Shown here in pieces: positions 20,681-32,859 of a DNA stretch of 46,134 bases; the stretch's first letter is position 1; every line of letters starts with the position of its first letter. Below the pieces are notes generated by a model, which was given only the letters and a program-made list of their open reading frames with translations, was not told where the DNA came from and did no database searches. The stretch comes from Pseudomonadota bacterium (GTDB lineage Bacteria > Desulfobacterota > Desulfovibrionia > Desulfovibrionales > Desulfomicrobiaceae), in NCBI GenBank assembly GCA_030529235.1, contig JAUMXF010000005.1, positions 1 to 46,134 on the forward strand, written 5' to 3'. Both the position numbers and the translations under genes were made by a program.

Positions 20681-21448
20681 CTATTCCTTTTCCCACTTCT
20701 CGTCCCGGCCCAGCAGCAGACGTATGGTTTCTCCGGCCACATGCAGACCGAACATGCCTGTCAGATAGGAGATGGACCCGATGGGCGCGCGCGGCCGCCC
20801 CGGCCGGTTCTGTTCCGGGGCTTCCTCCAGAACAGGGGTGTTTTTGTTCTGAGCCTGCTCCACGGAAAACACGCAGCGCACGCCGGAAGAGATGTTGCGG
20901 TGGCGCAGGCTCTTGCGGATGATCTGAGCCAGCGGGCACATGAAGGATTTGGAAATGTCGGCGGTACGGATGCGGGAAGGGTCCAGTTTGGCCGCCGCGC
21001 CCATGCTGGACACCACCGGCAGACCCATGCCGCGGGCCGCCACAATCAGGTTCACCTTGGAATTGACGCCGTCGATGGCGTCCACCACCACGTTGAACCC
21101 GGGCGAAAGAAGCGCCGCCGCGTTGTCGCCGTTCACGAATTCCACGCGGGCGTCCACCCGGCAGGACGGATTGATGTCCATGATCCGTTCGCAGGCCACA
21201 TGGGCCTTGAACCTGCCCACGGTGGATTCCAGAGCCAGCAGCTGGCGGTTGATGTTGGAACGGCTCACGGTGTCGTGATCGAACAGGGCAAGGCCGCCCA
21301 CTCCGGCCCTGGCCAGACTTTCCACCACGTAGGAACCCACCGCGCCCAGACCGAACACGGCCACCGTGGCTGCTTGCAGGCGGTCCAGTTCCTCTTCGCC
21401 GATGAGTTGCAGGGTGCGGGCAAAGCGCGTCAGGGTATCGGTGCTCAT
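20681..21448 (-). CDS. tcdA: tRNA t6A37 dehydratase TcdA (CsdL), ThiF/MoeB-like E1
   Basis: ATP-dependent enzyme of the E1-like family that converts t6A at tRNA position 37 to its cyclic form. The 255 residues show the nucleotide site (VFGLGAVGSYVVESLARAGVG), the metal/ATP motif DHDTVSRSNINRQLLAL, and DAIDGVNSKVNLI, and the C-terminal part (SISYLTGMFGLHVAGETIRLLLG) fits TcdA rather than ThiF or MoeB. The ATG at 21448 overlaps the TatD gene stop by four bases, so the two are co-translated. From the family, the product is membrane-associated in E. coli. A sulfur-carrier role cannot be excluded but is less likely. Confidence 0.88.
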   Translation of the reverse strand: MSTDTLTRFARTLQLIGEEELDRLQAATVAVFGLGAVGSYVVESLARAGVGGLALFDHDTVSRSNINRQLLALESTVGRFKAHVACERIMDINPSCRVDARVEFVNGDNAAALLSPGFNVVVDAIDGVNSKVNLIVAARGMGLPVVSSMGAAAKLDPSRIRTADISKSFMCPLAQIIRKSLRHRNISSGVRCVFSVEQAQNKNTPVLEEAPEQNRPGRPRAPIGSISYLTGMFGLHVAGETIRLLLGRDEKWEKE

Positions 21449-22251
21449 CGGCCGTCCTCTCCGTTGCAGGCGAAAAAACGGCGGGCGTTGGCCGCCGTGT
21501 ACCGGGCCAGTTCCTTGGGATCCTCGCCGCGCAGACCGGCCAGGGTTTCCACCACGAGAGGCAGGTAGGCCGGTTCGTTGCGCTCGAAAGGTACGCCGGG
21601 CGGCGCGATGGCCGGACTGTCGGATTCCACCAGCAGACGGCCGGGCGAGATGCGTATGCAGGCCGTGCGGGCCTTGCGGTTGGCCGGGCGGGTGATGGAC
21701 GCGCACACGGAAATGTGAAAGCCGAGCTTTTCGAATACCGGAACCATCTCGTGGGAACCGGCATAGGCGTGGAGCATCATGCGCGGCGGCCGCTCGGGCA
21801 TGTCCCGGATCAGGTCCGCCAGACGGCCGAAGGCCTTGCGGCAGTGGATGCTCACGGGGCGGGCGTATTTTGCGGCCAGGGCCATCTGGGCCAGGAATAC
21901 GCGCTCCTGTTCGGCGTCGTTGCGTTCGGGCAGGGCGTTGTCCAGACCGATTTCCCCCACGGCCACGGGATGCGCGGCCACCAGTTCCTCCAGACGGTCC
22001 AGCCAGTGCGGCGAACGTCCGCCCACATACCACGGATGCAGGCCCAGGGAGACATGCACGTCCTTGTGGGTGCGGCCAAGGCCGAGCACATAGTCCCAGT
22101 CGTCCTCGCCGGTGCCGTTGCAGCACATCAGGGCCACTCCGGCCGCTCTGGCCCGGATCAGGGCCGGAGCCAGACCGTGGCGCAGAAAGCCGTCCTGCAG
22201 ATGGCAGTGCGCGTCCACAAGACCGGCATACATCCCGTTGTCCGGGTTCAT
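21445..22251 (-). CDS. TatD-family metal-dependent hydrolase (DNase)
   Basis: TIM-barrel metallohydrolase, 268 residues, of the TatD/YcfH group, whose members act as 3'-5' exonucleases or D-aminoacyl-tRNA-like hydrolases. The metal ligands are visible: DAHCHL near the start, GEIGLD in the middle, SIHCRKAFG, MLHAY and the final VESDSPAI. The usual GLDY is GLDN here. The ATG at 22251 is divergent from the sirtuin gene, with 72 bases between the starts. It shares an operon with tcdA through an ATGA overlap. The substrate is not predicted. Confidence 0.92.
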   Translation of the reverse strand: MNPDNGMYAGLVDAHCHLQDGFLRHGLAPALIRARAAGVALMCCNGTGEDDWDYVLGLGRTHKDVHVSLGLHPWYVGGRSPHWLDRLEELVAAHPVAVGEIGLDNALPERNDAEQERVFLAQMALAAKYARPVSIHCRKAFGRLADLIRDMPERPPRMMLHAYAGSHEMVPVFEKLGFHISVCASITRPANRKARTACIRISPGRLLVESDSPAIAPPGVPFERNEPAYLPLVVETLAGLRGEDPKELARYTAANARRFFACNGEDGR

Positions 22252-22323
22252 GAAAACTCCGTTGTTTTTCCTTTTGCCGCGCGGTTCCGGTCTGTGCTAC
22301 CCCAGTCGGAAAGAGGGAACGCC

Positions 22324-23016
22324 ATGGAAAGAAAACATGTTGTGGCTCTGACCGGGGCGGGCATCAGCGCCGAGAGCGGCCTGTCCACTTTCCGGGATGA
22401 AGACGGCCTGTGGAGCAAATTCCGCGTGGAAGACGTGGCCACACCCCAGGCCTTTGCCCGCAATCCCGGCCGGGTGCTCGAATTTTACAATCAGCGCCGG
22501 CGTCAGTTGCGGGATGCCGCTCCCAACGCGGCCCATACGGCCCTTGCCCGGCTGGAGCAAGGGTACAGGGTGAGCATTGTCACCCAGAACGTGGACGACC
22601 TGCACGAAAGGGCCGGGTCGTCCAGCATTCTGCATCTGCACGGACAGCTCAGGTTGGCGTGCAGCACGCTGGACCCGGACTACGTGGTGGACATCGGCTA
22701 CGAGCCCATCGCTCTGGGCGATCTTTGCCCCGGAGGCGGACAGCTGCGTCCGGCCATCGTCTGGTTCGGCGAACCCGTGCCCATGATGGACCGCGCCCGC
22801 GAGATCGTGGCTTCGGCGGATGTGCTCATGGTCATCGGAACGTCTCTGGCCGTGTACCCGGCTGCCTTTCTGGCCCACGAGGCGCCGTCCGGCGCGTCCG
22901 TTCTGGTTGTCGATCCGAAAGCCGAACCCGGCCGGGTGGCCGGTGCCGTGGTCCATCGGGAAAAGGCCGCCCGGTGCGTGCCCCGGTTGGTGGAAGAACT
23001 GCTGCAAAAGAGGTGA
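22324..23016 (+). CDS. cobB: Sirtuin-type NAD-dependent protein deacylase, zinc-less
   Basis: Removes acyl groups from lysines using NAD+. The 230 residues show the NAD site (GAGISAESGLSTFRDEDGLW), QNVDDLHERAG and the catalytic His in HLHG (residue 106). Tyr55 and Arg58 (FYNQR) match the Y-x-x-R pair that gives SIRT5 and E. coli CobB desuccinylase activity. The four-cysteine zinc site is absent: only two cysteines lie in that region, which reads DIGYEPIALGDLCPGGGQLRP. That wording, together with FRDEDGLW, resembles Bacteroidetes sirtuins, so transfer is possible. The start (ATG 22324) is chosen where likeness begins. A tiny membrane ORF follows after three bases. Confidence 0.9.
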   Translation: MERKHVVALTGAGISAESGLSTFRDEDGLWSKFRVEDVATPQAFARNPGRVLEFYNQRRRQLRDAAPNAAHTALARLEQGYRVSIVTQNVDDLHERAGSSSILHLHGQLRLACSTLDPDYVVDIGYEPIALGDLCPGGGQLRPAIVWFGEPVPMMDRAREIVASADVLMVIGTSLAVYPAAFLAHEAPSGASVLVVDPKAEPGRVAGAVVHREKAARCVPRLVEELLQKR

Positions 23017-23019
23017 ACG

Positions 23020-23178
23020 ATGGAAAATCTGCTTTACGTGCTGCTTTTCGTGGCGGCCTGGGTACTGCTGGTCAAAATTGTCTTTCCCAGGCTCGGCATT
23101 CACGGTTGAGACCCGGAACCCGGGGGCTGCGGTCGGCAGCCCGAAGAACGTCCGGAGAATCAGGAACATCAGTCATGA
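23020..23178 (+). CDS. Small membrane protein, candidate selenoprotein (in-frame UGA)
   Basis: ATG 23020 follows the sirtuin stop by three bases, with a strong GAGGTGA. The first 29 codons encode one membrane helix (NLLYVLLFVAAWVLLVKIVF) and PRLGIHG, then TGA (23107-23109). If that TGA is read as selenocysteine, the frame continues with DPEPGGCGRQPEERPENQEH and ends at TGA 23176-23178, giving 52 residues. A hairpin with a GGUCG loop lies 14 bases after the TGA, at the distance and with the loop expected of a bacterial SECIS. From memory, small single-helix deltaproteobacterial proteins have LGVxTC...GxC at this place, so Sec would pair with the downstream Cys. If there is no recoding, it is a 29-residue protein ending at 23109. 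Confidence 0.5.
23124..23142 (+). promoter_or_regulatory. Candidate bacterial SECIS hairpin
   Basis: GGGCTGC (23124-23130), loop GGTCG (23131-23135) and GCAGCCC (23136-23142) form a 7-bp perfect stem. The loop starts 21 bases after the in-frame TGA. GGUC in the apical loop is the feature SelB recognises in the E. coli fdhF element. The bulged U of fdhF is not seen, so this is a candidate only. Confidence 0.45.
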
Positions 23179-23580
23179 TGCAGACAGCTCGGTCATGATG
23201 AGCCCCACGAAGCCGGAGGCCTGGTGCCGGAACTCCCACCCCAGATGTGCGTGGCACTCCGCGCACAGGGCGAATCTCCAGGCATAGCCGGGAAACCAGG
23301 TGAAGGCCTCGGTGAATTCTCCTTCAAAGCGGCAGCCCGGCGCGGCCGTGAAGCATGTCATTTCAAACAGAATGCCCGCCGGGTTGAACAGATTGTGCCG
23401 GTACCGGCCGTCCATGGCGATCCTGTCCCGGGTTTTGGTCACAGGCCGGGAACAGGTCCGGCACAGGAGCCAGTCCTCCGGCTCCGGAGCCTGATGCTCC
23501 TGCCGGGCGGGAGCTGGGGCGTATTCGGGATTCTCCCGGAACAGGAAATGGCGGGTCGAGTCCATGGGGGAGTGAGGCAT
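23173..23580 (-). CDS. Cereblon-like CULT-domain protein
   Basis: A stand-alone CULT domain, the thalidomide-binding fold of human cereblon. With the ATG at 23580 it has 135 residues. Zinc ligands are Cys40/Cys43 (CRTC) and Cys106/Cys109 (CAEC). The tri-tryptophan pocket is complete: Trp95 and Trp101 in WFPGYAW, Trp115 in HLGWEF, with Phe117 matching human Phe402. Asn66-Pro67 matches human Asn351-Pro352; human His378 is replaced by Phe93. An ATG at 23565 is an alternative start. It follows the GH57 gene by eight bases. Its stop overlaps that of the candidate selenoprotein in the palindrome TCATGA. Bacterial CULT proteins bind cyclic imides and uridine-like ligands in vitro; the cellular role is unknown. 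Confidence 0.9.
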   Translation of the reverse strand: MPHSPMDSTRHFLFRENPEYAPAPARQEHQAPEPEDWLLCRTCSRPVTKTRDRIAMDGRYRHNLFNPAGILFEMTCFTAAPGCRFEGEFTEAFTWFPGYAWRFALCAECHAHLGWEFRHQASGFVGLIMTELSAS

Positions 23581-23588
23581 TCGTTCGC

Positions 23589-25703
23589 TCAGTCGGGCCG
23601 GACGGCCAGCCCCAGCAACTGGCACAGCTCGGCGTGCACGTCCCGGCCGGGCAGCTCCATGACCATGTTCTGAACCTGCCAGAACCAGACGCGCAGGCCG
23701 AGCTTGCGCGCCCGCACGATGAGCCCGCTCAGGTCGTGGGCGCTCCGGGGCAGTTCCTGAGCCAGACGTACGCCGTGAGCCTCGGTTTCGCGTTCGAGCA
23801 TGGCTCGTGCGGCCTCGTTTTTTTCCAGAGTTCTCCGCAGCCAGACCACCGTGTCTTCGGACAGATTCATTTCTCCGGACAGCCAGTTCCAGCTCAGGCC
23901 GGGCAGCAGCAGGGCCAGCCTGCCCCGCGCGCGGTCTTCGGACGCGCCGTTCAGAAAGGGGGCCAGCGCCAGAGCCAGAGATGCAGACTGGCGCAGCAGG
24001 CCATCCTCATTCCGCGCGGACAGGCGCAGGCTCATTTCAGCGGCATGGCGCGCCGGCGGAGGAGCTGGTTCGGCGATCCGCATCCGGACGCTCTCTTCTT
24101 CCAGTGTGGCCGGCCAGAAAGCCTGAAGCGCCAGCTCCGGGCCTTCGGTTTGTGCCCGCAGCCGAAGGCCCGGCCAGGATATTTCGTGCGGGCCGCCGGG
24201 AGGAAAATAGAGAGCCAGGCTCCGCAGCGAAGGCCGGCGTGGATTGATCATGGTTTCCCACAGCGCCGCGCCGTCCCATTTATCGTCCACGTTGGATTGG
24301 GCCTCGGACAGGATGCGCACGAAGCCGTCCTCCACATCGGGTCCGCCGCAAGCGCGCAGCAGATCGAGCGTCCGCCGGGCCGAGGTCAGGGCGTTGAGCG
24401 GCTCCAGACCCGAAATGTCGTCGAAGAACCAGGCGCAGCTGGCGAAACTGGCCAGCGCCAGACGCTGCATGAGCAGGAGCCTGCAGGCGCTGGTTTTTTC
24501 CGCGCCAGCCAGCTTTTTCCGGCCGTGGCGGTCCAGAAAGGATTCCAGAGTCTCCGTCCCGGCCAGCGTCAGGCCGTATCCCCGCAGGGCCAGATTCGGA
24601 TCGGTGAAAAACTCCGCGCCGCGCCGGAAAAAATGTTCATCCGCGTAATACTTCAGATAATTGAGGCAGCGGCGCAGGGGCCGTCTCCAGTCCTGGGTCC
24701 AGTCCGGGTGTCCGTTCCCGGAGCAGCCGCAATGCGTTTTCCATCTTTCCAGGCCGTGGGCGCAGCTCCAGGACGTGTTTTCGTGCAGGAGGACCTCGTG
24801 TTCGGCCGGGTGCGCCGCCAGGTACGCGGCGTAATTGGTCAGGGCCAGATTGTCGCGTCCCTGCCGGGCCTGGTCCACCACATAGGCCAGAGCCATTTCG
24901 CCGAAGGGAAAATGATGGCCGTAGGATTCGCCGTCCGTGGCGATGTTCCGCAGGCCGCCGGAAAAGGAGGCCGCGAGCCTGTTCCAGAAGTTTTCCCCGT
25001 TTTCCAGCAGCCGCTCGAAGGCCACGGCCTGGGACGTGGGGCCGTGGTAGAAAAACACGGTTATGGACTTGCCTTGGGACAGGCGGACCAGATAGGGCCG
25101 CGTGGTGTCGAGGGTGTCGGCGGAAACGGGGCGGAATCCGGCTTCTCCGGGGCGGCGCACGGAGGCCGCCTGCCGGGGCGCCAGAATGGTGAAGGCTATT
25201 CCGGCGTCGGCCAGCGTTTCCAGAGTGGGCAGATCCACGGCGGTTTCGGCCAGCCACATGCCTTCGGGATCGCGGCCGAAGCGCTGCCTGAAATCCTGAA
25301 CAGCCCACTGCACTTCCAGAGTTTTGTCCAGTTCCGTGGCCAGCGGCATGATGGGATGGTGATAGACTTGGGCCAGAGCGTTGCCGTGTCCCCAGCGGGC
25401 GAGGCTTTCGGCGTCCGCCGCCAGAATGCGGGCGTAGGTTTCGGGCGCGTGCCGTTCCATCCAGGACAGGAGCGTCGGCCCGAAATTGAAGCTCATCCAG
25501 GCATAGCAGTTGATCATCTCCCGGATCAGGCCCTGACTGTCCAGCCTGCGTGCCGCGCCGAGGGGCGCGTAGCACTGCCGGGTGATGCGCGCGTTCCAGT
25601 CGTGGTCCGGTCCGGCCCCGTTTTCGGGCAGGACGTCCTCGATCCAGGGGTCGAGGCGCGGAGGCTGGTAAAAGTGGCCGTGGATGCACAGAAATCTGGT
25701 CAT
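23589..25703 (-). CDS. GH57-family glycoside hydrolase with DUF3536-like C-terminus
   Basis: Large cytoplasmic glycoside hydrolase, 704 residues, no signal peptide. The N-terminal (beta/alpha)7 barrel opens with LCIHGHFYQPPRLDPW, the GH57 motif 1, and contains MWLAETAVD, the motif 3 region with the probable catalytic Glu, and TDGESYGHHFPFGEMAL, which carries the acid Asp. The C-terminal half (from about residue 300: LHENTSWSCAHGLERWKTHCGC) matches the DUF3536-type extension. GH57 enzymes act on alpha-glucans (amylase, branching, glucanotransferase). I chose ATG 25703 because GGAG lies six bases before it. The CULT gene follows after eight bases, so the two are probably co-transcribed. Confidence 0.9.
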   Translation of the reverse strand: MTRFLCIHGHFYQPPRLDPWIEDVLPENGAGPDHDWNARITRQCYAPLGAARRLDSQGLIREMINCYAWMSFNFGPTLLSWMERHAPETYARILAADAESLARWGHGNALAQVYHHPIMPLATELDKTLEVQWAVQDFRQRFGRDPEGMWLAETAVDLPTLETLADAGIAFTILAPRQAASVRRPGEAGFRPVSADTLDTTRPYLVRLSQGKSITVFFYHGPTSQAVAFERLLENGENFWNRLAASFSGGLRNIATDGESYGHHFPFGEMALAYVVDQARQGRDNLALTNYAAYLAAHPAEHEVLLHENTSWSCAHGLERWKTHCGCSGNGHPDWTQDWRRPLRRCLNYLKYYADEHFFRRGAEFFTDPNLALRGYGLTLAGTETLESFLDRHGRKKLAGAEKTSACRLLLMQRLALASFASCAWFFDDISGLEPLNALTSARRTLDLLRACGGPDVEDGFVRILSEAQSNVDDKWDGAALWETMINPRRPSLRSLALYFPPGGPHEISWPGLRLRAQTEGPELALQAFWPATLEEESVRMRIAEPAPPPARHAAEMSLRLSARNEDGLLRQSASLALALAPFLNGASEDRARGRLALLLPGLSWNWLSGEMNLSEDTVVWLRRTLEKNEAARAMLERETEAHGVRLAQELPRSAHDLSGLIVRARKLGLRVWFWQVQNMVMELPGRDVHAELCQLLGLAVRPD

Positions 25704-25773
25704 GAATGGCTCCGGATGCGGATTTTTCACGGGATGCCTCTCCGCCGGAGGCGGGGACGGGAGACTGCTAGCA

Positions 25774-25791
25774 ACGGGCCGGGCGGCCCGT
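25774..25791. other. Inverted repeat in the GH57/rdgC divergent region
   Basis: ACGGGCC, spacer GGGC and GGCCCGT form a 7-bp perfect inverted repeat between divergent genes. It could be an operator for either promoter; nothing more can be said from one copy. Confidence 0.3.
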
Positions 25792-25912
25792 CAAAGCGCA
25801 ATTTGACGCCATCCGGACGGAAACAGCAAGCGAGAGTCCTGAATCCGTCCCGCGAGAGGATGGTTTCAGGCGGAAAATATCTGGCGGAGTGAACGCCGCC
25901 AAGGAGGATGTC

Positions 25913-26542
25913 TTGGGATTCATGTCGGCAAGCGTGGGACTGACCCGCTATCGCATTGTGGAAAAGGACATCGACCCGTCCCTGTGGGCGGAAATAGAAG
26001 ACCGGCTGAAAGGGCGGGCCTTCCGGGACATCGACGCCAGCGCCGAGGAACGCAGTTTCGGCTGGGTGTCCTTCGACAACATGCTCGATCCGGAATTCGC
26101 GCTGTGTCCGCCGGAAAAGGGGCCGTATCTGGCCTTTACCCTCCGTCTGGACACCAGAAGGGTCCCCCCGGCGGTGATGAAGAAGCATGTGGCCGTGGCC
26201 CTGAACGAGGCGTTGCAGGCCATGCGCGAACAGGGACGCAAGTTTCTGACCAAGGAGCAGAAAACGGAAATCCGGGAGCAGGTGGCGCTGCGGCTGCGGG
26301 CGCGGACCCTGCCCATTCCTGCCTGCTTCGACGTGATCTGGGACACGGAGCGCGGGCAGGTCTGGATCGCCTCCACCCAGTCCAGGCTGACGGAACTGTT
26401 CGAGGAACTCTTCACCCAGACCTTCGGTCTGCATCTGGAGCCCATGACGCCCTATTTTCAGGCTCTGGCCGCTCTGGGCGAAGACGGCCGCGCCGCGCTG
26501 GACACCCTGGAACCCACCATTTTCGCCGGAGAGAACGTATGA
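25913..26542 (+). CDS. rdgC: RdgC-like recombination-associated protein
   Basis: Homologue of RdgC, a DNA-binding ring protein that in E. coli restrains RecA. It starts at a TTG (25913) with a perfect AAGGAGG five bases upstream, giving MGFMSASVGLTRYRI, the usual opening in this group; an in-frame frame from 25889 and an ATG at 25922 fit less well. With 209 residues it is about two-thirds of the E. coli protein, so part of the ring architecture may differ. Family features include VPPAVMKKHVAVALNEAL and the stretch KEQKTEIREQVALRLRARTLP. It overlaps the next gene at ATGA. Confidence 0.85.
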   Translation: MGFMSASVGLTRYRIVEKDIDPSLWAEIEDRLKGRAFRDIDASAEERSFGWVSFDNMLDPEFALCPPEKGPYLAFTLRLDTRRVPPAVMKKHVAVALNEALQAMREQGRKFLTKEQKTEIREQVALRLRARTLPIPACFDVIWDTERGQVWIASTQSRLTELFEELFTQTFGLHLEPMTPYFQALAALGEDGRAALDTLEPTIFAGENV

Positions 26543-27069
26543 TGGAGATTGATCTTGAACGAGCCGAAACCGTGAGTCTGGCCTTGGGTCAGGAATTTCT
26601 GACCTGGCTGTGGTTTGCCAGCGAAACGCAGAACGGTTTGTTCCGCACGGCTGACGGCGAGGTGTTTTCTCTGCTGGTGGAGCAGAAGGTGTCCGTGCAG
26701 GGCGGCGAGGGCGAAGCCCGCGAGACGGCCGTGTGCAGCGGCCCCATGGCCGAACTGCGCGAAGCCCGGATGGGGCTGCGCACGGGCAAGAAGGTGAACA
26801 AGGCCAAGCTGCGCATCGAAAAGGACGAGACCGGCTGGCAGGTGCTTGTCGATGCGGCCGATTTCACCCTTCAGGGACTCAAAACGCCCAAGGTGGACAT
26901 GCGTCTGGAGGAAGGCGAGGAGCCCGACGCCCGGATTCTGGAGAAAATCTACCTGTTGGAAAAATGCATGAGCTATGTGGACGCGGTTTTTGCCCGTTTT
27001 GTGAGCCTGCGCTTCGGCCCGGACTGGGAAACCGAAAGGCGGCGGGTCTGGGCCTGGATGCGGGAGTGA
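26539..27069 (+). CDS. Conserved rdgC-partner protein of unknown function
   Basis: I do not recognise a characterised family. The 176-residue protein is soluble and acidic with alternating charge, without a signal peptide or membrane helix. Segments that look structured are ALGQEFLTWLWFASE near the start and RILEKIYLLEKCMSYVDAVFARFVSLR near the end. The ATG overlaps the rdgC stop by four bases (ATGA), and a terminator follows directly, so the pair forms a two-gene operon. The tight coupling suggests that it works with RdgC, for example by modifying its binding to DNA; this is inference from position only. Confidence 0.75.
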   Translation: MMEIDLERAETVSLALGQEFLTWLWFASETQNGLFRTADGEVFSLLVEQKVSVQGGEGEARETAVCSGPMAELREARMGLRTGKKVNKAKLRIEKDETGWQVLVDAADFTLQGLKTPKVDMRLEEGEEPDARILEKIYLLEKCMSYVDAVFARFVSLRFGPDWETERRRVWAWMRE

Positions 27070-27075
27070 CCGCCG

Positions 27076-27116
27076 GGCGGGCCGTGTTTCCGGGCTGAAC
27101 GAGCCCGCCGCTTTTT
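27076..27116 (+). terminator. Intrinsic terminator of the rdgC operon
   Basis: GGCGGGC (27076-27082) pairs with GCCCGCC (27103-27109) around a 20-base loop; CTTTTT follows. It begins seven bases after the stop of the rdgC partner gene and overlaps the space before the convergent PilZ gene. Confidence 0.75.
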
Positions 27117-27129
27117 GCGGCCGCGCACC

Positions 27130-27609
27130 TCAGGACAGATAGCCGAGCAGGGTCTGATAGCTGTCCGGGTCGGCGTCGTGGAAAACGGCCCCGATCTGCA
27201 GGACGTCGGACGCCGGAGCCGCCCAGGATATCTGGCAGTGGATGGTCACGGGGCGTCTGCCCCTCGGCAGAGAGAAGACCACGTCGAACTGCCGGCCCGG
27301 ACTGAACTCGCCGGGATCGGCCTCGCCGGACAGAGTCAGACTGACGCCGCCCAGGGACAGGGAGGTGATTCTCGCCGCCAGGGGCGCGTCCGGACCCCGT
27401 TCCACCAGGGCCGGGATGTTTTCGTTCTGGCGCGAGAATTTCCGCCTGTCCTGATCCAGAATTTTCCGGGCCGCCGGCGAATTCAGGTATTCGTCCAGCA
27501 CGGTATCGATGAACCCGGACAGGGTGGTGCCGTTCTGCGCGGCCATTTTTTTCAGGGACGCGCTCAACCGGACGGTGGTCCGGAAGCTGATCATGGTGTC
27601 TTTGGACAT
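27130..27609 (-). CDS. Ribbon-helix-helix / PilZ domain fusion protein
   Basis: A 159-residue protein with two parts. Residues 5-45 (MISFRTTVRLSASLKKMAAQ to FIDTVLDEYLNS) look like a ribbon-helix-helix DNA-binding unit. Residues about 55-159 look like a PilZ domain: RRKFSRQ carries the RxxxR element and SLSLGG stands where (D/N)xSxxG is usual. Canonical PilZ domains bind cyclic di-GMP; here Ser replaces the Asp/Asn, so binding is uncertain. The ATG at 27609 has GGAG five bases upstream; a longer frame to 27810 has no support. A c-di-GMP-responsive transcription factor is a fair hypothesis. The gene is divergent from the BMP importer operon. Confidence 0.75.
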   Translation of the reverse strand: MSKDTMISFRTTVRLSASLKKMAAQNGTTLSGFIDTVLDEYLNSPAARKILDQDRRKFSRQNENIPALVERGPDAPLAARITSLSLGGVSLTLSGEADPGEFSPGRQFDVVFSLPRGRRPVTIHCQISWAAPASDVLQIGAVFHDADPDSYQTLLGYLS

Positions 27610-27831
27610 GGGCGCTCCATGGCGGGTTTTCTGGGCCGGAATGCCCGGCTTGTTCGGTTTTTTGGCCGTCATGTCAACGCGCTGTGTGTTTTCCGCTCCG
27701 GGGCGCGTCCGCTTCCCCGCCTGCGGCTGTTGCCAGCGCGTGGAGGATGGATTAGGCTGCTTCCCTTGCTGCGGCAACCTTTCCGGACCGTTTCTGTCCG
27801 CGTCCGGCAACTATTCCGTAACGGAGGAAGG

Positions 27832-28890
27832 ATGATGCGAACGTCTGCGTTTTTGACCCTTGCGGTGCTTCTGATGCTGGGCGCTCCCTGTTTCGCCAAG
27901 GACATGAAGGTCGGATTCGTCTATGTGTCGCCGGTGGGGGATGCCGGGTATTCCTATGCTCACGATCAGGGCCGCCTGGCTGTGGAAGCCATGGACGGGG
28001 TGAGCACGTCCTTTGTGGAATCCGTGGCCGAGGGTCAGGATTCCGAACGGGTCATTCTGAACATGGCCCGCAAAGGTTATTCCGTCATTTTCGGCACCAG
28101 CTACGGGTATATGGATCCCATGCTGAAAGTGGCCAAGGATTTTCCCGATGTGAAATTCCTGCACTGCTCCGGTTACAAAAACGGGCCGAACATGGCCAAT
28201 TATTTTGGCCGCATTTATCAGGCCCGCTATCTGACGGGCATGGTGGCCGCGTCCATGACCAAATCCGGAAAGCTGGGTTACGTGGCCGCTTTCCCCATTC
28301 CCGAAGTCATCCGGGGCATCAACGCCTTCACTCTGGGCGCCCAGTCCGTCAGGCCGGATGCGGAAGTGCGCGTGGTCTGGACCAAGACCTGGTACGATCC
28401 GGCCACGGAAAAGGAAGCGGCCAAATCCCTGCTGGACGTGGGCTGCGATGTCATCGCCCAGCATCAGGATTCTCCCGGTCCGCAGGAGGCGGCCCAGGAA
28501 CGCGGGGTCTACTCCGTGGGCTACAATTCGGACATGAAGGCCTTTGCGCCCAAGTCCCACCTGACCGCCGCCGTCTGGAACTGGGCTCCGTTCTACACGG
28601 AAATGGTGCAGCAGATCAAAGACGGCTCGTGGAAGAGCGGCTCCTACTGGCATGGTCTGGACAAGGGCATTGTAGACATCGCCCCCTTCGGCGACATGGT
28701 GCCCGAAGACGTGCGCGCCGCAGTCCTGGCCAAAAAGGCGGACATCGCTTCGGGCGCGTACAAGGTCTTCAGCGGTCCCATCGCCGACCAGACCGGCACG
28801 GAAAAGGTCCCGGCCGGAGCGGTCATGACGGATGAAGAACTGCTCGGCTTCAACTGGTTCGTGAAAGGCGTCGTGGGCACCCTGCAGTAG
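27832..28890 (+). CDS. BMP-family ABC transporter substrate-binding protein
   Basis: Periplasmic binding protein of the BMP/Med (PnrA-like) group, which binds purine nucleosides in studied cases. The 352 residues begin with a signal peptide (RTSAFLTLAVLLMLGAPCFA); LGAPC is not a good lipobox, so a soluble protein is likely. Family landmarks are KVGFVYVSPVGDAGYSYAHD, SYGYMDPMLKVAKDFPDVKF, GYVAAFPIPEVIRGINAF and VGYNSDMKAFAPKSHLTAAV. GGAGG lies upstream of twin ATGs (27832, 27835). A weak -35/-10 pair (TTGCCA 27730, TAGGCT 27753) precedes it. It heads an operon with two permeases, gpt and the ATPase. Confidence 0.93.
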   Translation: MMRTSAFLTLAVLLMLGAPCFAKDMKVGFVYVSPVGDAGYSYAHDQGRLAVEAMDGVSTSFVESVAEGQDSERVILNMARKGYSVIFGTSYGYMDPMLKVAKDFPDVKFLHCSGYKNGPNMANYFGRIYQARYLTGMVAASMTKSGKLGYVAAFPIPEVIRGINAFTLGAQSVRPDAEVRVVWTKTWYDPATEKEAAKSLLDVGCDVIAQHQDSPGPQEAAQERGVYSVGYNSDMKAFAPKSHLTAAVWNWAPFYTEMVQQIKDGSWKSGSYWHGLDKGIVDIAPFGDMVPEDVRAAVLAKKADIASGAYKVFSGPIADQTGTEKVPAGAVMTDEELLGFNWFVKGVVGTLQ

Positions 28891-28895
28891 GCCGC

Positions 28896-29954
28896 ATGCC
28901 CGTGTTTCGCGTCATCAAACGGCAGGAGCCTCTGGGTTGGGGCTCCTGCTTTGTTTTTTTTCTGGCTCTGCTCCTGGCCCTGACCGCGAGCGGCGCGCTG
29001 CTGGCCATGCAGGGCAAGCCCGCACTGGAGGGCCTGTGGCTTCTGGCCGAGAGCGCCTTCGGTTCCCGGCACGCTCTGGAAGACTGCCTGATCAAGGCCG
29101 TGCCCATTTTTCTGTGTTCCGTGGGTGTGGGACTGACGTTTCGTCTGCAAATCTGGAACATCGGCGCGGAAGGGCAGTTCGCCCTGGGCGCTGTGGGCGC
29201 GACCTGGGCCGCCCTGACCTTTCCGGGCTGGCCGTGGTACCTGCTGCTGCCGTTTATGCTGCTCTGCGCTTCTCTGGCGGGGGCCCTGTGGGCGGCTGTC
29301 CCGGCCGTGCTGCGTCTGTCCCTGCGGGCCAATGAGATCATCGTCAGTCTCATGCTCAACTATGTGGGCATTCTGATGCTCGAATATCTGGTTTACGGCC
29401 CGTGGAAGGATCCGGGCAGTTTCGGCTTTCCCATGACCAGCGAGTTCGCGGCCGGAGCCGTGGTCGGACGTATCCCCGGCACCCGCCTCAACTGGGGGCT
29501 TGCGCTGTGTCTGCTGGCCGGAGCGGGTATGAGCGTGTTCCTGCGCTGCACCCGGCTGGGCTACGAACTGCGGGCCTGCGGGGAGAACGCCCGCGCCGCG
29601 CGCTACGCCCGCATGCCGTACGCCTTTCTGGTGATGCTGGTCATGACCGTGAGCGGCGCTCTGGCGGGCTGGGCCGGATTTCTGGAATCCTCGGCCATTC
29701 TGGGGCGGCTGCAACCGACCATCATGTCCGGCTACGGATACACGGCCATCGTGGTGGCCTGGCTCGCGCATCTGAATCCCTTTTACATCGCCGTGGCCTC
29801 TTTTCTGCTGGCGGGTCTGCGCGTGGGCATGGAGAGTCTGCAGCTGGATATGCAGGTTCCGGCGGCCTTCGGCGGAATCATGGAAGGGCTCGTGCTGCTC
29901 GCGGTGCTGGCCGGAGGATTTTTCTCCCGCTACCGGCTTCGGAGGCGGCCATGA
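28896..29954 (+). CDS. ABC transporter permease (nucleoside/BMP type), subunit 1
   Basis: Integral membrane subunit of the BPD_transp_2 family, 352 residues. It has eight or more hydrophobic helices. The landmarks are FRLQIWNIGAEGQFALGAVGA and RANEIIVSLMLNYVG, followed by TRLGYELRACGENARAARYA, the loop that contacts the ATPase. The gene begins five bases after the binding-protein stop and overlaps the second permease by four bases (ATGA). The two permeases differ in length and sequence and should form a heterodimer. Confidence 0.93.
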   Translation: MPVFRVIKRQEPLGWGSCFVFFLALLLALTASGALLAMQGKPALEGLWLLAESAFGSRHALEDCLIKAVPIFLCSVGVGLTFRLQIWNIGAEGQFALGAVGATWAALTFPGWPWYLLLPFMLLCASLAGALWAAVPAVLRLSLRANEIIVSLMLNYVGILMLEYLVYGPWKDPGSFGFPMTSEFAAGAVVGRIPGTRLNWGLALCLLAGAGMSVFLRCTRLGYELRACGENARAARYARMPYAFLVMLVMTVSGALAGWAGFLESSAILGRLQPTIMSGYGYTAIVVAWLAHLNPFYIAVASFLLAGLRVGMESLQLDMQVPAAFGGIMEGLVLLAVLAGGFFSRYRLRRRP

Positions 29955-30871
29955 CGCCGGAAATTTTCCTGTCCCTTCTGGCCGCCACGGTGCAGTCGGG
30001 CACACCTATCCTTTACGCCACCCTGGGTGAAATGCTGACCGAAAAGGGCGGCATCCTGAATCTGGGCGTGGAGGGCATCATGCTGGTGGGCGCTCTGGCC
30101 GCCTTTCTGACGGCCCTGCACACGGGCTCGCCGACGCTGGCCTTCGCGGCCGGGGGCCTGGCCGGAGCTCTGCTGGCCGCCGTGCACGGCGTGGTCTGCA
30201 TCTGGTTTCTGGGCAACCAGATCGTCTCGGGGCTGGCTCTGACCATCCTCGGAGCGGGCCTGTCCGGGTTTTTTGGTACGCCCTACATCGGCCGCACCGC
30301 CCCCGGTTTCGACAAGTTCTCTCTGCCCCTGCTCGGCGACATCCCCGTTCTCGGTCCTGTTTTTTTTCAGCAGGACGCCCTGGTTTATGTCTCGTTTCTG
30401 CTGCCGCCGCTCATGTGGGCCTTTTTCCGGTACACCCGCTGGGGGTTGGCCGTGACCGCAAGCGGGGAGTGTCCGGCCGCGGGCCGCGCCGCCGGGCTGA
30501 ACATGGCCGCTTACCGCTGGGGTTCCCTGCTCGGCGGCGGCGTTCTGGCGGGCTTTGGCGGTGCGTATCTGAGCCTGGCCTACACACACCTGTGGACCAA
30601 CGGACTGACTTCGGGCCGGGGCTGGATCGCCGTGGCCCTGGTCATTTTCGCCTTCTGGCGGCCTCAGCGGGCCGTCATCGGGGCCTATCTTTTCGGCGGC
30701 GTCATGGCCTTTCAGCTGCGTCTTCAGGCTATGGGGACGGCGGTACCGTCGTCCATCCTGCTCATGCTGCCCTACGTCCTGACCGTCGCGGCTCTGGCCT
30801 TTTCCTCCCGGCGCAGCCGGAGGACCGCCGCACCGGCCGCCCTGGGCGTCAATGTCGAACCTTCCGAATAG
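29951..30871 (+). CDS. ABC transporter permease (nucleoside/BMP type), subunit 2
   Basis: Second BPD_transp_2 permease, 306 residues. The opening LLAATVQSGTPILYATLGEMLTEKGGILNLGVEG is diagnostic of this subunit. NQIVSGLALTILGAGLSG and the cytoplasmic loop RWGLAVTASGECPAAGRAAGLN follow. The C-terminal tail is short and basic. ATG 29951 overlaps the first permease. The gpt gene begins ten bases after the stop. Confidence 0.93.
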   Translation: MTPEIFLSLLAATVQSGTPILYATLGEMLTEKGGILNLGVEGIMLVGALAAFLTALHTGSPTLAFAAGGLAGALLAAVHGVVCIWFLGNQIVSGLALTILGAGLSGFFGTPYIGRTAPGFDKFSLPLLGDIPVLGPVFFQQDALVYVSFLLPPLMWAFFRYTRWGLAVTASGECPAAGRAAGLNMAAYRWGSLLGGGVLAGFGGAYLSLAYTHLWTNGLTSGRGWIAVALVIFAFWRPQRAVIGAYLFGGVMAFQLRLQAMGTAVPSSILLMLPYVLTVAALAFSSRRSRRTAAPAALGVNVEPSE

Positions 30872-30880
30872 GACTCTGCC

Positions 30881-31372
30881 ATGACTGAAAACAGATACCA
30901 GCGCACCTATCCCATTTCCTGGGACCAGCTGCACCGCGACGCCAAGGCCCTGTCCTGGCGTCTTCTGGACAAGGACTTCTTCAACGGCATCATCGCCGTG
31001 ACCCGCGGCGGGCTGGTGCCCGCGGCCATCATCGCCAGAGAGCTGGACATCCGGCTGGTGGATACGGTCTGCGTGGCCAGCTACGACTGGCAGGACCAGA
31101 AGGGCGAGGTGAAGCTCCTCAAGGGGGTGAACGGCGACGGCGAGGGCTGGCTCATCATCGACGATCTGGTGGACACGGGGCGGACGGCCAAGCTCATCCG
31201 GGAGCTTCTGCCCAAGGCCCATTTCGCCTCCGTCTACGCCAAGCCCGCCGGGCGGCCTCTGGTGGACACCTATGTGACCGAAGTCAGCCAGGACACGTGG
31301 ATTCTCTTCCCCTGGGACACGGAATCGCAGTTCGTGCAGCCTCTGGCCGGGCGGCGGCAGGGACAGCCGTGA
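30881..31372 (+). CDS. gpt: Xanthine phosphoribosyltransferase (xanthine-guanine PRT)
   Basis: Transfers phosphoribose from PRPP to xanthine or guanine. The 163 residues align along their length with E. coli Gpt: [43 protein letters not shown], the PRPP loop [13 protein letters not shown] and [23 protein letters not shown]. The ATG at 30881 is preceded by only a weak site (AGGACTC). The gene lies inside a BMP-type importer operon, between the second permease and the ATPase, and its stop overlaps the ATPase GTG (GTGA). This strongly suggests that the transporter brings in purines that Gpt then traps as nucleotides. Confidence 0.95.
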
Positions 31373-32859
31373 CCGTGGCTCCGGCGGCGGTGGCCCTGCG
31401 GGGCATCACCAAGGTTTTCGGGACGGTGCGGGCCAACGGGGATATCAGCCTGGATATCCATCCGGGCCGGATCAAGGCCCTGCTCGGCGAGAACGGCGCG
31501 GGCAAGAGCACCCTCATGTCCATTCTGGCCGGGCATTACCGCCCTGACGCGGGAGAAATTCTGGTGGACGGCGAACCCCGCGTGTTCCGCTCCACCCGCG
31601 ACGCCATCCGGGCGGGCATTGGCATGGTCTATCAGCACTTCATGCTGGTGGAGGCCATGACCGTGGCCGAAAATGTTTTTCTGGGCCAGGAGCCCGGGTT
31701 TTTCCTCTCCCCGGCGGATTTGGAGAAGCGCGTGCGCGAGCTGGCGGAGTCGTACGGTCTGGAGGTGGACCCCGCCGCACGCGTGGCCGATCTGTCCATG
31801 GGCGAGCGGCAACGGGTGGAAATCCTGCGTCTGCTGGAACGCCGCAGCCGGGTGCTCATTTTTGACGAACCCACGGCCGTGCTCACGCCCCAGGAGGGCG
31901 AACAGCTTTTCCAGGCCCTGCGGAACATGGCCGCCCAGGGCAAGGCCATCGTCTATATTTCCCACAAGCTGCACGAGGTCATGGCTCTGGCCGACGAAGT
32001 GGCCATTCTGCGCAAGGGACAGGTGGTGGATGAAATCGCGGCCGCCGATGTTCGCTCCCAGGCCGATCTGGCCCGGCGCATGGTGGGCCGGGAAGTGCTC
32101 CTCGATGTGCGCCGTAAGCCCCGCGAGCCGCGCCAGAACGTGCTGCGCCTGGAGGATGTGCATGCCGGGATGCTGCGCGGCGTGTCTTTGTCCTTGCGCC
32201 AGGGGGAAATCCTGGCTGTGGTCGGCGTGGCGGGCAACGGTCAGCGCGATCTGGCCGAAACCGTCTGCGGGCTGCGCCGTCCGGACGCGGGCGAGGCCGT
32301 CGTGCTGGGCAGGCCCTGGTCCGCGTTTTTCGCCGATCCGCCCTGGCAGGGAGGGCTGAGCTACATCCCCGAGGATCGCATGGGGCTGGCCGTGTGCCGG
32401 AACATGGACCTGGTAGACAATTTCCTGCTCACCACCCGTCAGGGCTATGCCTCCTCCGTATGGCTGAAGCGCGCGGAGGCCCGCACCGCCGCCAGAAGCC
32501 TGATCACACAGTTTCATGTTTCTCCCCCCGACGAGTCCTGCCGGGCCTGGCAGCTTTCGGGCGGGAATCTCCAGAAAATGGTGCTGGCCCGGGAGTTTCA
32601 TCGCCGCCCCCGGCTTATTGTGGCGGAACAGCCCACTCAGGGACTGGACGTGTCGGCCATCGAGGAGGTCTGGAAGACTCTGCTGGCCGCCCGGGAGGAA
32701 GCGGGCATTCTGCTCATCACCGGCGACCTGTCCGAGGCTCTGGCCCTGGCCGACCGTATCGCGGTCATGTTCGAGGGCCGCATCGTGGATGTCTTCCCGG
32801 CGGAGGACAGGGGCAAAACCGGCAACATCGGCCTGATGATGGCGGGCGTGAAGGCATAG
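31369..32859 (+). CDS. ABC transporter ATP-binding protein (nucleoside/BMP type)
   Basis: Duplicated ATPase of the BMP/sugar-type importers, 496 residues. The first domain has Walker [10 protein letters not shown], a signature [11 protein letters not shown] and Walker [14 protein letters not shown]. The second has a degenerate Walker A (GVAGNGQRD), [14 protein letters not shown] and [12 protein letters not shown], as is usual for this group. The GTG start (31369) overlaps gpt by four bases and gives [18 protein letters not shown]; a GTG two codons on is an alternative. It closes the operon. Confidence 0.94.

Follow-up and report, generated by a model that had tools for sequence, protein, structure and literature searches.

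The gene at the centre of the window (the whole 46,134-nucleotide stretch of DNA that was analysed) very probably encodes a zinc-stabilised CULT protein of the Desulfomicrobium type, a predicted soluble binder of ring-shaped ligands that was placed after a GH57 gene by chromosomal rearrangement. Among bacterial CULT genes it is genuine but unremarkable, and proteins like it were already known from this group of sulfate reducers. Features of the window are listed in Table 1.

Table 1. Features of the window around the CULT gene, with the evidence for each assignment.
Feature	Position	Strand	Basis and remarks
ThiF-family protein nearest TcdA; part of the ancestral gene order downstream of CULT in the genus	20681..21448	-	Pfam; NCBIfam below cut-off
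TatD-type hydrolase; lay downstream of CULT in the ancestral gene order of the genus	21445..22251	-	Pfam; congener neighbourhoods
SIR2-family NAD-dependent deacylase	22342..23016	+	Pfam; convergent with CULT in a subset of congeners
CULT (cereblon-like, beta-tent) single-domain protein, 135 aa	23173..23580	-	Translation; phmmer; AlphaFold2 (pLDDT 87); Foldseek/VIA-align; conservation
Junction of 8 nt, GH57 stop to CULT start; meeting point of two ancestral syntenic blocks	23581..23588		Blocks about 77 kb apart in six congeners; former upstream genes of CULT on contig C139
GH57 + DUF3536 protein	23589..25730	-	Pfam; synteny; brought beside CULT by rearrangement, no conserved unit

Identity, predicted fold and binding pocket

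The open reading frame begins with an ATG at 23580 on the minus strand and terminates with a TGA at 23175-23173, yielding 135 residues. Translation may instead start at Met6 (23565), since the sister species does not retain Met1. Comparison with solved structures using phmmer gave as top match MsCI4 (cereblon isoform 4, MGR_0879, of Magnetospirillum gryphiswaldense; PDB 4v2y among numerous entries) at an E-value of 4e-22 over residues 38-132, and human cereblon matched at about 1e-9; judged by sequence comparison, the relationship lies far above chance. No NCBIfam model matched the protein. The sole Pfam match was a sub-threshold hit to Yippee-Mis18 (PF03226) across residues 38-119 (E 0.003), and at 18 bits against a curated cut-off of 26.6 membership of that family was rejected; Yippee and Mis18 are distant beta-tent relatives of the protein. 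No relatives were found in searches of phages, plasmids and viral contigs, with no sign of mobile carriage, and the best match of the predicted model in a viral fold library reached only E 0.014.

An AlphaFold2 model built from 63 sequences, comprising the window protein and 62 relatives, had a mean pLDDT of 87, with most of the core exceeding 90 and the first 30 residues at 64-67. The predicted CULT fold occupies approximately residues 36-135, preceded only by a short tail of low confidence. The model superposed on the best MsCI4 chains with an rmsd of 1.0-1.2 Å over about 100 residues (Z 19.5-19.8, Foldseek/VIA-align) and on human CRBN with an rmsd of 1.2-1.9 Å (Z 17-18, VIA-align). Its closest superposition (Z 19.8, 1.0 Å over 100 residues of MsCI4) assigns the predicted model to the beta-tent fold of the CULT family. 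The overlay on CULT structures proposed in the first-pass annotation was therefore successful, and its identification of a CULT protein is borne out by both the phmmer and the fold matches. From the superposition and the invariance of the residues concerned, we infer the geometry of a tri-Trp cage. Neither a LON domain nor a DDB1-binding segment lies N-terminal to the CULT fold in the 135-residue protein (Pfam; AlphaFold2 model). Without the LON part of cereblon, the protein is therefore not a ubiquitin-ligase receptor. It is probably cytoplasmic, the N-terminus not being signal-like.

The zinc site is formed by two CxxC pairs, Cys40/43 and Cys106/109, both invariant in the 62 relatives, as is the hairpin Asn66-Pro67. 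The complete set of positions that never vary among these relatives comprises Cys40/43/106/109, His62, Asn66, Pro67, Gly69, Phe72, Glu73, Trp95, Phe96, Trp101 and Trp115. The cage residues Trp95, Trp101 and Trp115 align with Trp79, Trp85 and Trp99 of MsCI4 and with Trp380, Trp386 and Trp400 of human CRBN. MsCI4 is also a single CULT domain with two CxxC pairs, the tri-Trp cage and the Asn-Pro hairpin, and it shares Phe at the position of human His378 and Ala at that of His353 (Ala68 in the window protein). The two proteins are about 36% identical and differ at the cage base, where Phe117 replaces Tyr101, and at Ala92, which replaces Glu76. Of the 62 relatives, 38 carry Phe at position 117 and 24 carry Tyr; the Y101F mutant of MsCI4, in the same state as the window protein, bound thalidomide in the crystal (entry 4v32). 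The thalidomide-binding domain of human CRBN has the fold, the zinc site, the tri-Trp cage and the Phe at the cage base (Phe402) in common with the window protein, which differs in having no LON domain or DDB1-binding region and in carrying Phe93 for His378, Ala68 for His353 and Ala92 for Glu377.

The residue numbers of the first-pass annotation (the Cys pairs, Trp95/101/115, position 117, Asn66-Pro67 and Phe93) were all exact; the strand is corrected to minus. Its statement that all pocket features are present was confirmed for each of these residues but was slightly too strong, the Ala at the position of Glu377 having been missed. Phe93 had been singled out as a deviation from human His378. 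This did not hold, and Phe93 was rejected as a special feature: MsCI4 has the same residue (Phe77) and contacts glutarimide at this position through the backbone (PMC8900816), and Phe is the normal bacterial state, found in 55 of the 62 relatives with Tyr or Trp in the rest. At position 92 the relatives carry Glu (49 of 62), Asp (8) or Ala (2), and Ala also occurs in the intact, strongly conserved congener copies L034 and L035. In MsCI4, Glu76 touches the portion of the drug outside the ring (PMC8900816); ring binding should therefore survive the substitution. With Ala92 the rim of the pocket nevertheless lacks its customary acidic side chain, and affinity or ligand choice could differ.

A rearranged locus

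The GH57 gene ends 8 nt upstream of the CULT open reading frame on the same strand, and co-transcription of the two genes in this genome is plausible from their arrangement. The first-pass annotation regarded this as a new context for a CULT protein and recommended that the linkage be checked in related genomes. Adjacency was found in two of 110 distinct CULT loci (window included), those of the window and of its sister species G011, and was not kept across species; among the 80 loci drawn from the genome contig collection, GH57 was near CULT in none. Across 108 loci, 57 different gene families were found directly upstream of CULT. GH57 itself is present in 43 of the 61 genomes of the order-level set and in 14 of 15 congeners. 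In six of these (G015, G009, G013, G002, G001 and G006) both genes are on one contig with 77-79 kb between them, and GH57 is embedded in the same gene order as the 25889-32859 side of the window. A short RdgC-like gene at 25889-26542 on the plus strand (217 aa, matching about half of PF04381) heads this long conserved block adjoining GH57.

The CULT block of these six congeners has the order M48 peptidase, MscS channel, divergent ATC-hydrolase-family gene, CULT, TatD and ThiF/TcdA-like gene. The ATC-hydrolase-family gene (PF14196) is divergent from CULT in ten Desulfomicrobium loci (L032-L040 and L070), separated by a gap that is mostly 44-54 nt and 152 nt in one; these values derive from our own gene calls with a simple codon-usage caller, for which start sites and gaps are approximate. 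No PF14196 gene was found in either of the genomes that carry the GH57 junction, the window genome and G011. The M48-MscS pair resides on contig C139 in the former and not beside CULT, and in G011 it is located at 720-724 kb on the opposite strand, 390 kb from CULT at 330 kb. Since the GH57 and CULT blocks are separate in congeners and the M48-MscS pair has been displaced, the junction in the window is the site at which two old gene blocks were joined by a chromosomal rearrangement.

Several further observations concern the remaining CULT-side genes. The apparent conservation of a 433-aa 'SIR2' open reading frame and of another at 22297-23169 was partly an antisense shadow; the real genes here are SIR2 on the plus strand and TatD and ThiF on the minus strand. 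The ThiF-family protein, found near CULT throughout the genus, is nearest to TcdA (cyclic t6A synthase), but its score falls well short of the curated threshold. TcdA yields a cyclic modified base that has a hydantoin form. As a clue to the ligand this neighbour was set aside, because it accompanies CULT in a single genus only and the linkage between the two genes is not tight.

The single-contig genome of G011 (2.78 Mb) carries a CULT gene (L047:8062-8307) with an in-frame loss of 46-48 residues, corresponding to about residues 33-78. The deletion removes the first CxxC and the Asn-Pro hairpin, and the Trp half remains open. Comparison of the window and sister copies over the surviving part gave a dN/dS of 0.28-0.35, whereas six neighbouring genes, GH57 among them, ranged from 0.11 to 0.29; the CULT value is not neutral, but is higher than that of most of its neighbours. 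The presence of an intact copy in the window and a deleted one in its sister suggests a relaxed need for CULT, and with the sister copy broken the window gene may itself be drifting.

Two alternative explanations of the locus can be weighed against these data. A functional operon, in which CULT would sense or aid alpha-glucan metabolism, draws on the short same-strand spacing and on the lack of any promoter-like site found in 22950-26000; it is nevertheless highly improbable and was rejected on synteny, given an adjacency in only two loci, one with a broken CULT, its absence from the contig collection, and congeners in which both genes are present but apart. With the adjacency confined to two sister species, at a breakpoint, and the CULT gene internally deleted in one of them, GH57 is therefore uninformative on the function of CULT, any co-transcription is incidental, and the new context proposed for it is not borne out as functionally meaningful. 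That the window gene is a decaying remnant, losing function since its promoter-side neighbour was lost, is unlikely. The sister deletion, the Ala in place of Glu377, the missing divergent ATC-hydrolase neighbour and the absence of CULT from the near-complete congeners G004 and G005 all speak for decay, whereas the window reading frame is intact with all zinc and cage residues kept, the dN/dS of the surviving part is about 0.3, and the same Ala is carried by L034 and L035.

Distribution and recurring neighbours

The CULT gene was detected in 40 of 61 order-level relatives and in 39 of 395 genomes sampled evenly across the phylum; it was not found in G004 and G005. Recovery of CULT loci from the genome contig collection needed an alignment query, a single-protein query having given no match. 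Outside the order, the record titles of CULT matches were mainly of Desulfobulbaceae type and Desulfobacterales. This distribution is consistent with the description in 2015 of bacterial CULT proteins, mainly in delta-proteobacteria (PMC4287342). The statement in the first-pass annotation that only a few bacterial versions have been studied is a fair one, except that these proteins had by then been described as typical of the delta-proteobacteria. Identity of CULT within the genus is mostly 57-64%. The window protein resembles the delta-proteobacterial proteins (group I of Lupas et al. 2015, PMC4287342) in being a stand-alone CULT from the same bacterial group, and differs from them in the GH57 adjacency, which is unique to the window and its sister species.

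In 17 loci of Desulfobulbales type, CULT lies downstream of a cobA/hemD fusion (tetrapyrrole methylase and uroporphyrinogen-III synthase), with adenylate kinase (adk) on the same strand in 16 of them; in 14 of the 17, CULT overlaps the fusion or begins within 60 nt of it. This arrangement is the better context lead and far better supported than GH57, although the synteny may be positional only. The overlap often amounts to 11-20 nt, and a convergent SNF2 helicase gene follows CULT. Loci of this organisation include L074, L075, L077, L083, L088-L090, L094, L099, L102, L108, L109, L116 and L120, along with others.

Candidate ligands and function

By analogy with characterised relatives, the window protein most likely binds, in soluble form, ring-shaped molecules of the imide, uracil or lactam type. 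The small zinc-stabilised beta-tent domain would accept a flat ring with an imide, ureide or lactam edge. As in MsCI4, this ring would be stacked among the tryptophans at 95, 101 and 115 with Phe117 beneath it, and would hydrogen-bond to the main chain at positions 93 and 95. The most likely role of the protein is to bind or sequester such ligands in solution. The rearrangement that put CULT after GH57 also removed its original promoter-side neighbour.

Ligands of the uracil or uridine type and C-terminal cyclic imides are both possible for bacterial CULT proteins. A role as sensor or buffer of a small metabolite (uracil, uridine, dihydropyrimidine, hydantoin or lactam) is a tentative reading that falls somewhat short of an even chance. 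MsCI4 binds uracil and uridine (PMC4287342) and, according to structure entries matched by Foldseek, was crystallised with deoxyuridine and valerolactam; the divergent ATC-hydrolase-family gene of Desulfomicrobium and the position of CULT downstream of cobA/hemD in Desulfobulbales also favour it. Neighbours vary between lineages, however, those identified include no gene of pyrimidine or hydantoin pathways, and the protein has no effector domain. Alternatively, bacterial CULT may read damage, binding the C-terminal cyclic imides (aspartimide or glutarimide ends) of aged or cleaved proteins and masking them or passing them to a protease, which would make it the bacterial counterpart of the natural degron recognition of cereblon. 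The fold and invariant residues are common to human CRBN, which recognises C-terminal cyclic imide degrons (PMC12117711), and entry 9nr3, CRBN-DDB1 with GLUL-cN, was among the structures matched. This role is rather unlikely: the diversity of genes directly upstream includes no consistent protease or chaperone neighbour, and a protein found in only 39 of 395 phylum genomes is therefore not a core quality-control factor. Its more specific form, in which the stand-alone CULT proteins of sulfate reducers would recognise C-terminal cyclic-imide damage without ubiquitin and with partners that differ by lineage (the adk-cobA/hemD group in Desulfobulbales, for example), is more doubtful still.

Loss of the core of the CULT gene in one species suggests that the protein is dispensable there. 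A misleading clue is removed, the link to GH57 being no guide to the role of bacterial CULT proteins. The 110 distinct loci instead reveal the true recurring neighbours of CULT, namely cobA/hemD downstream of adk in Desulfobulbales and the divergent ATC-hydrolase-family gene in Desulfomicrobium.
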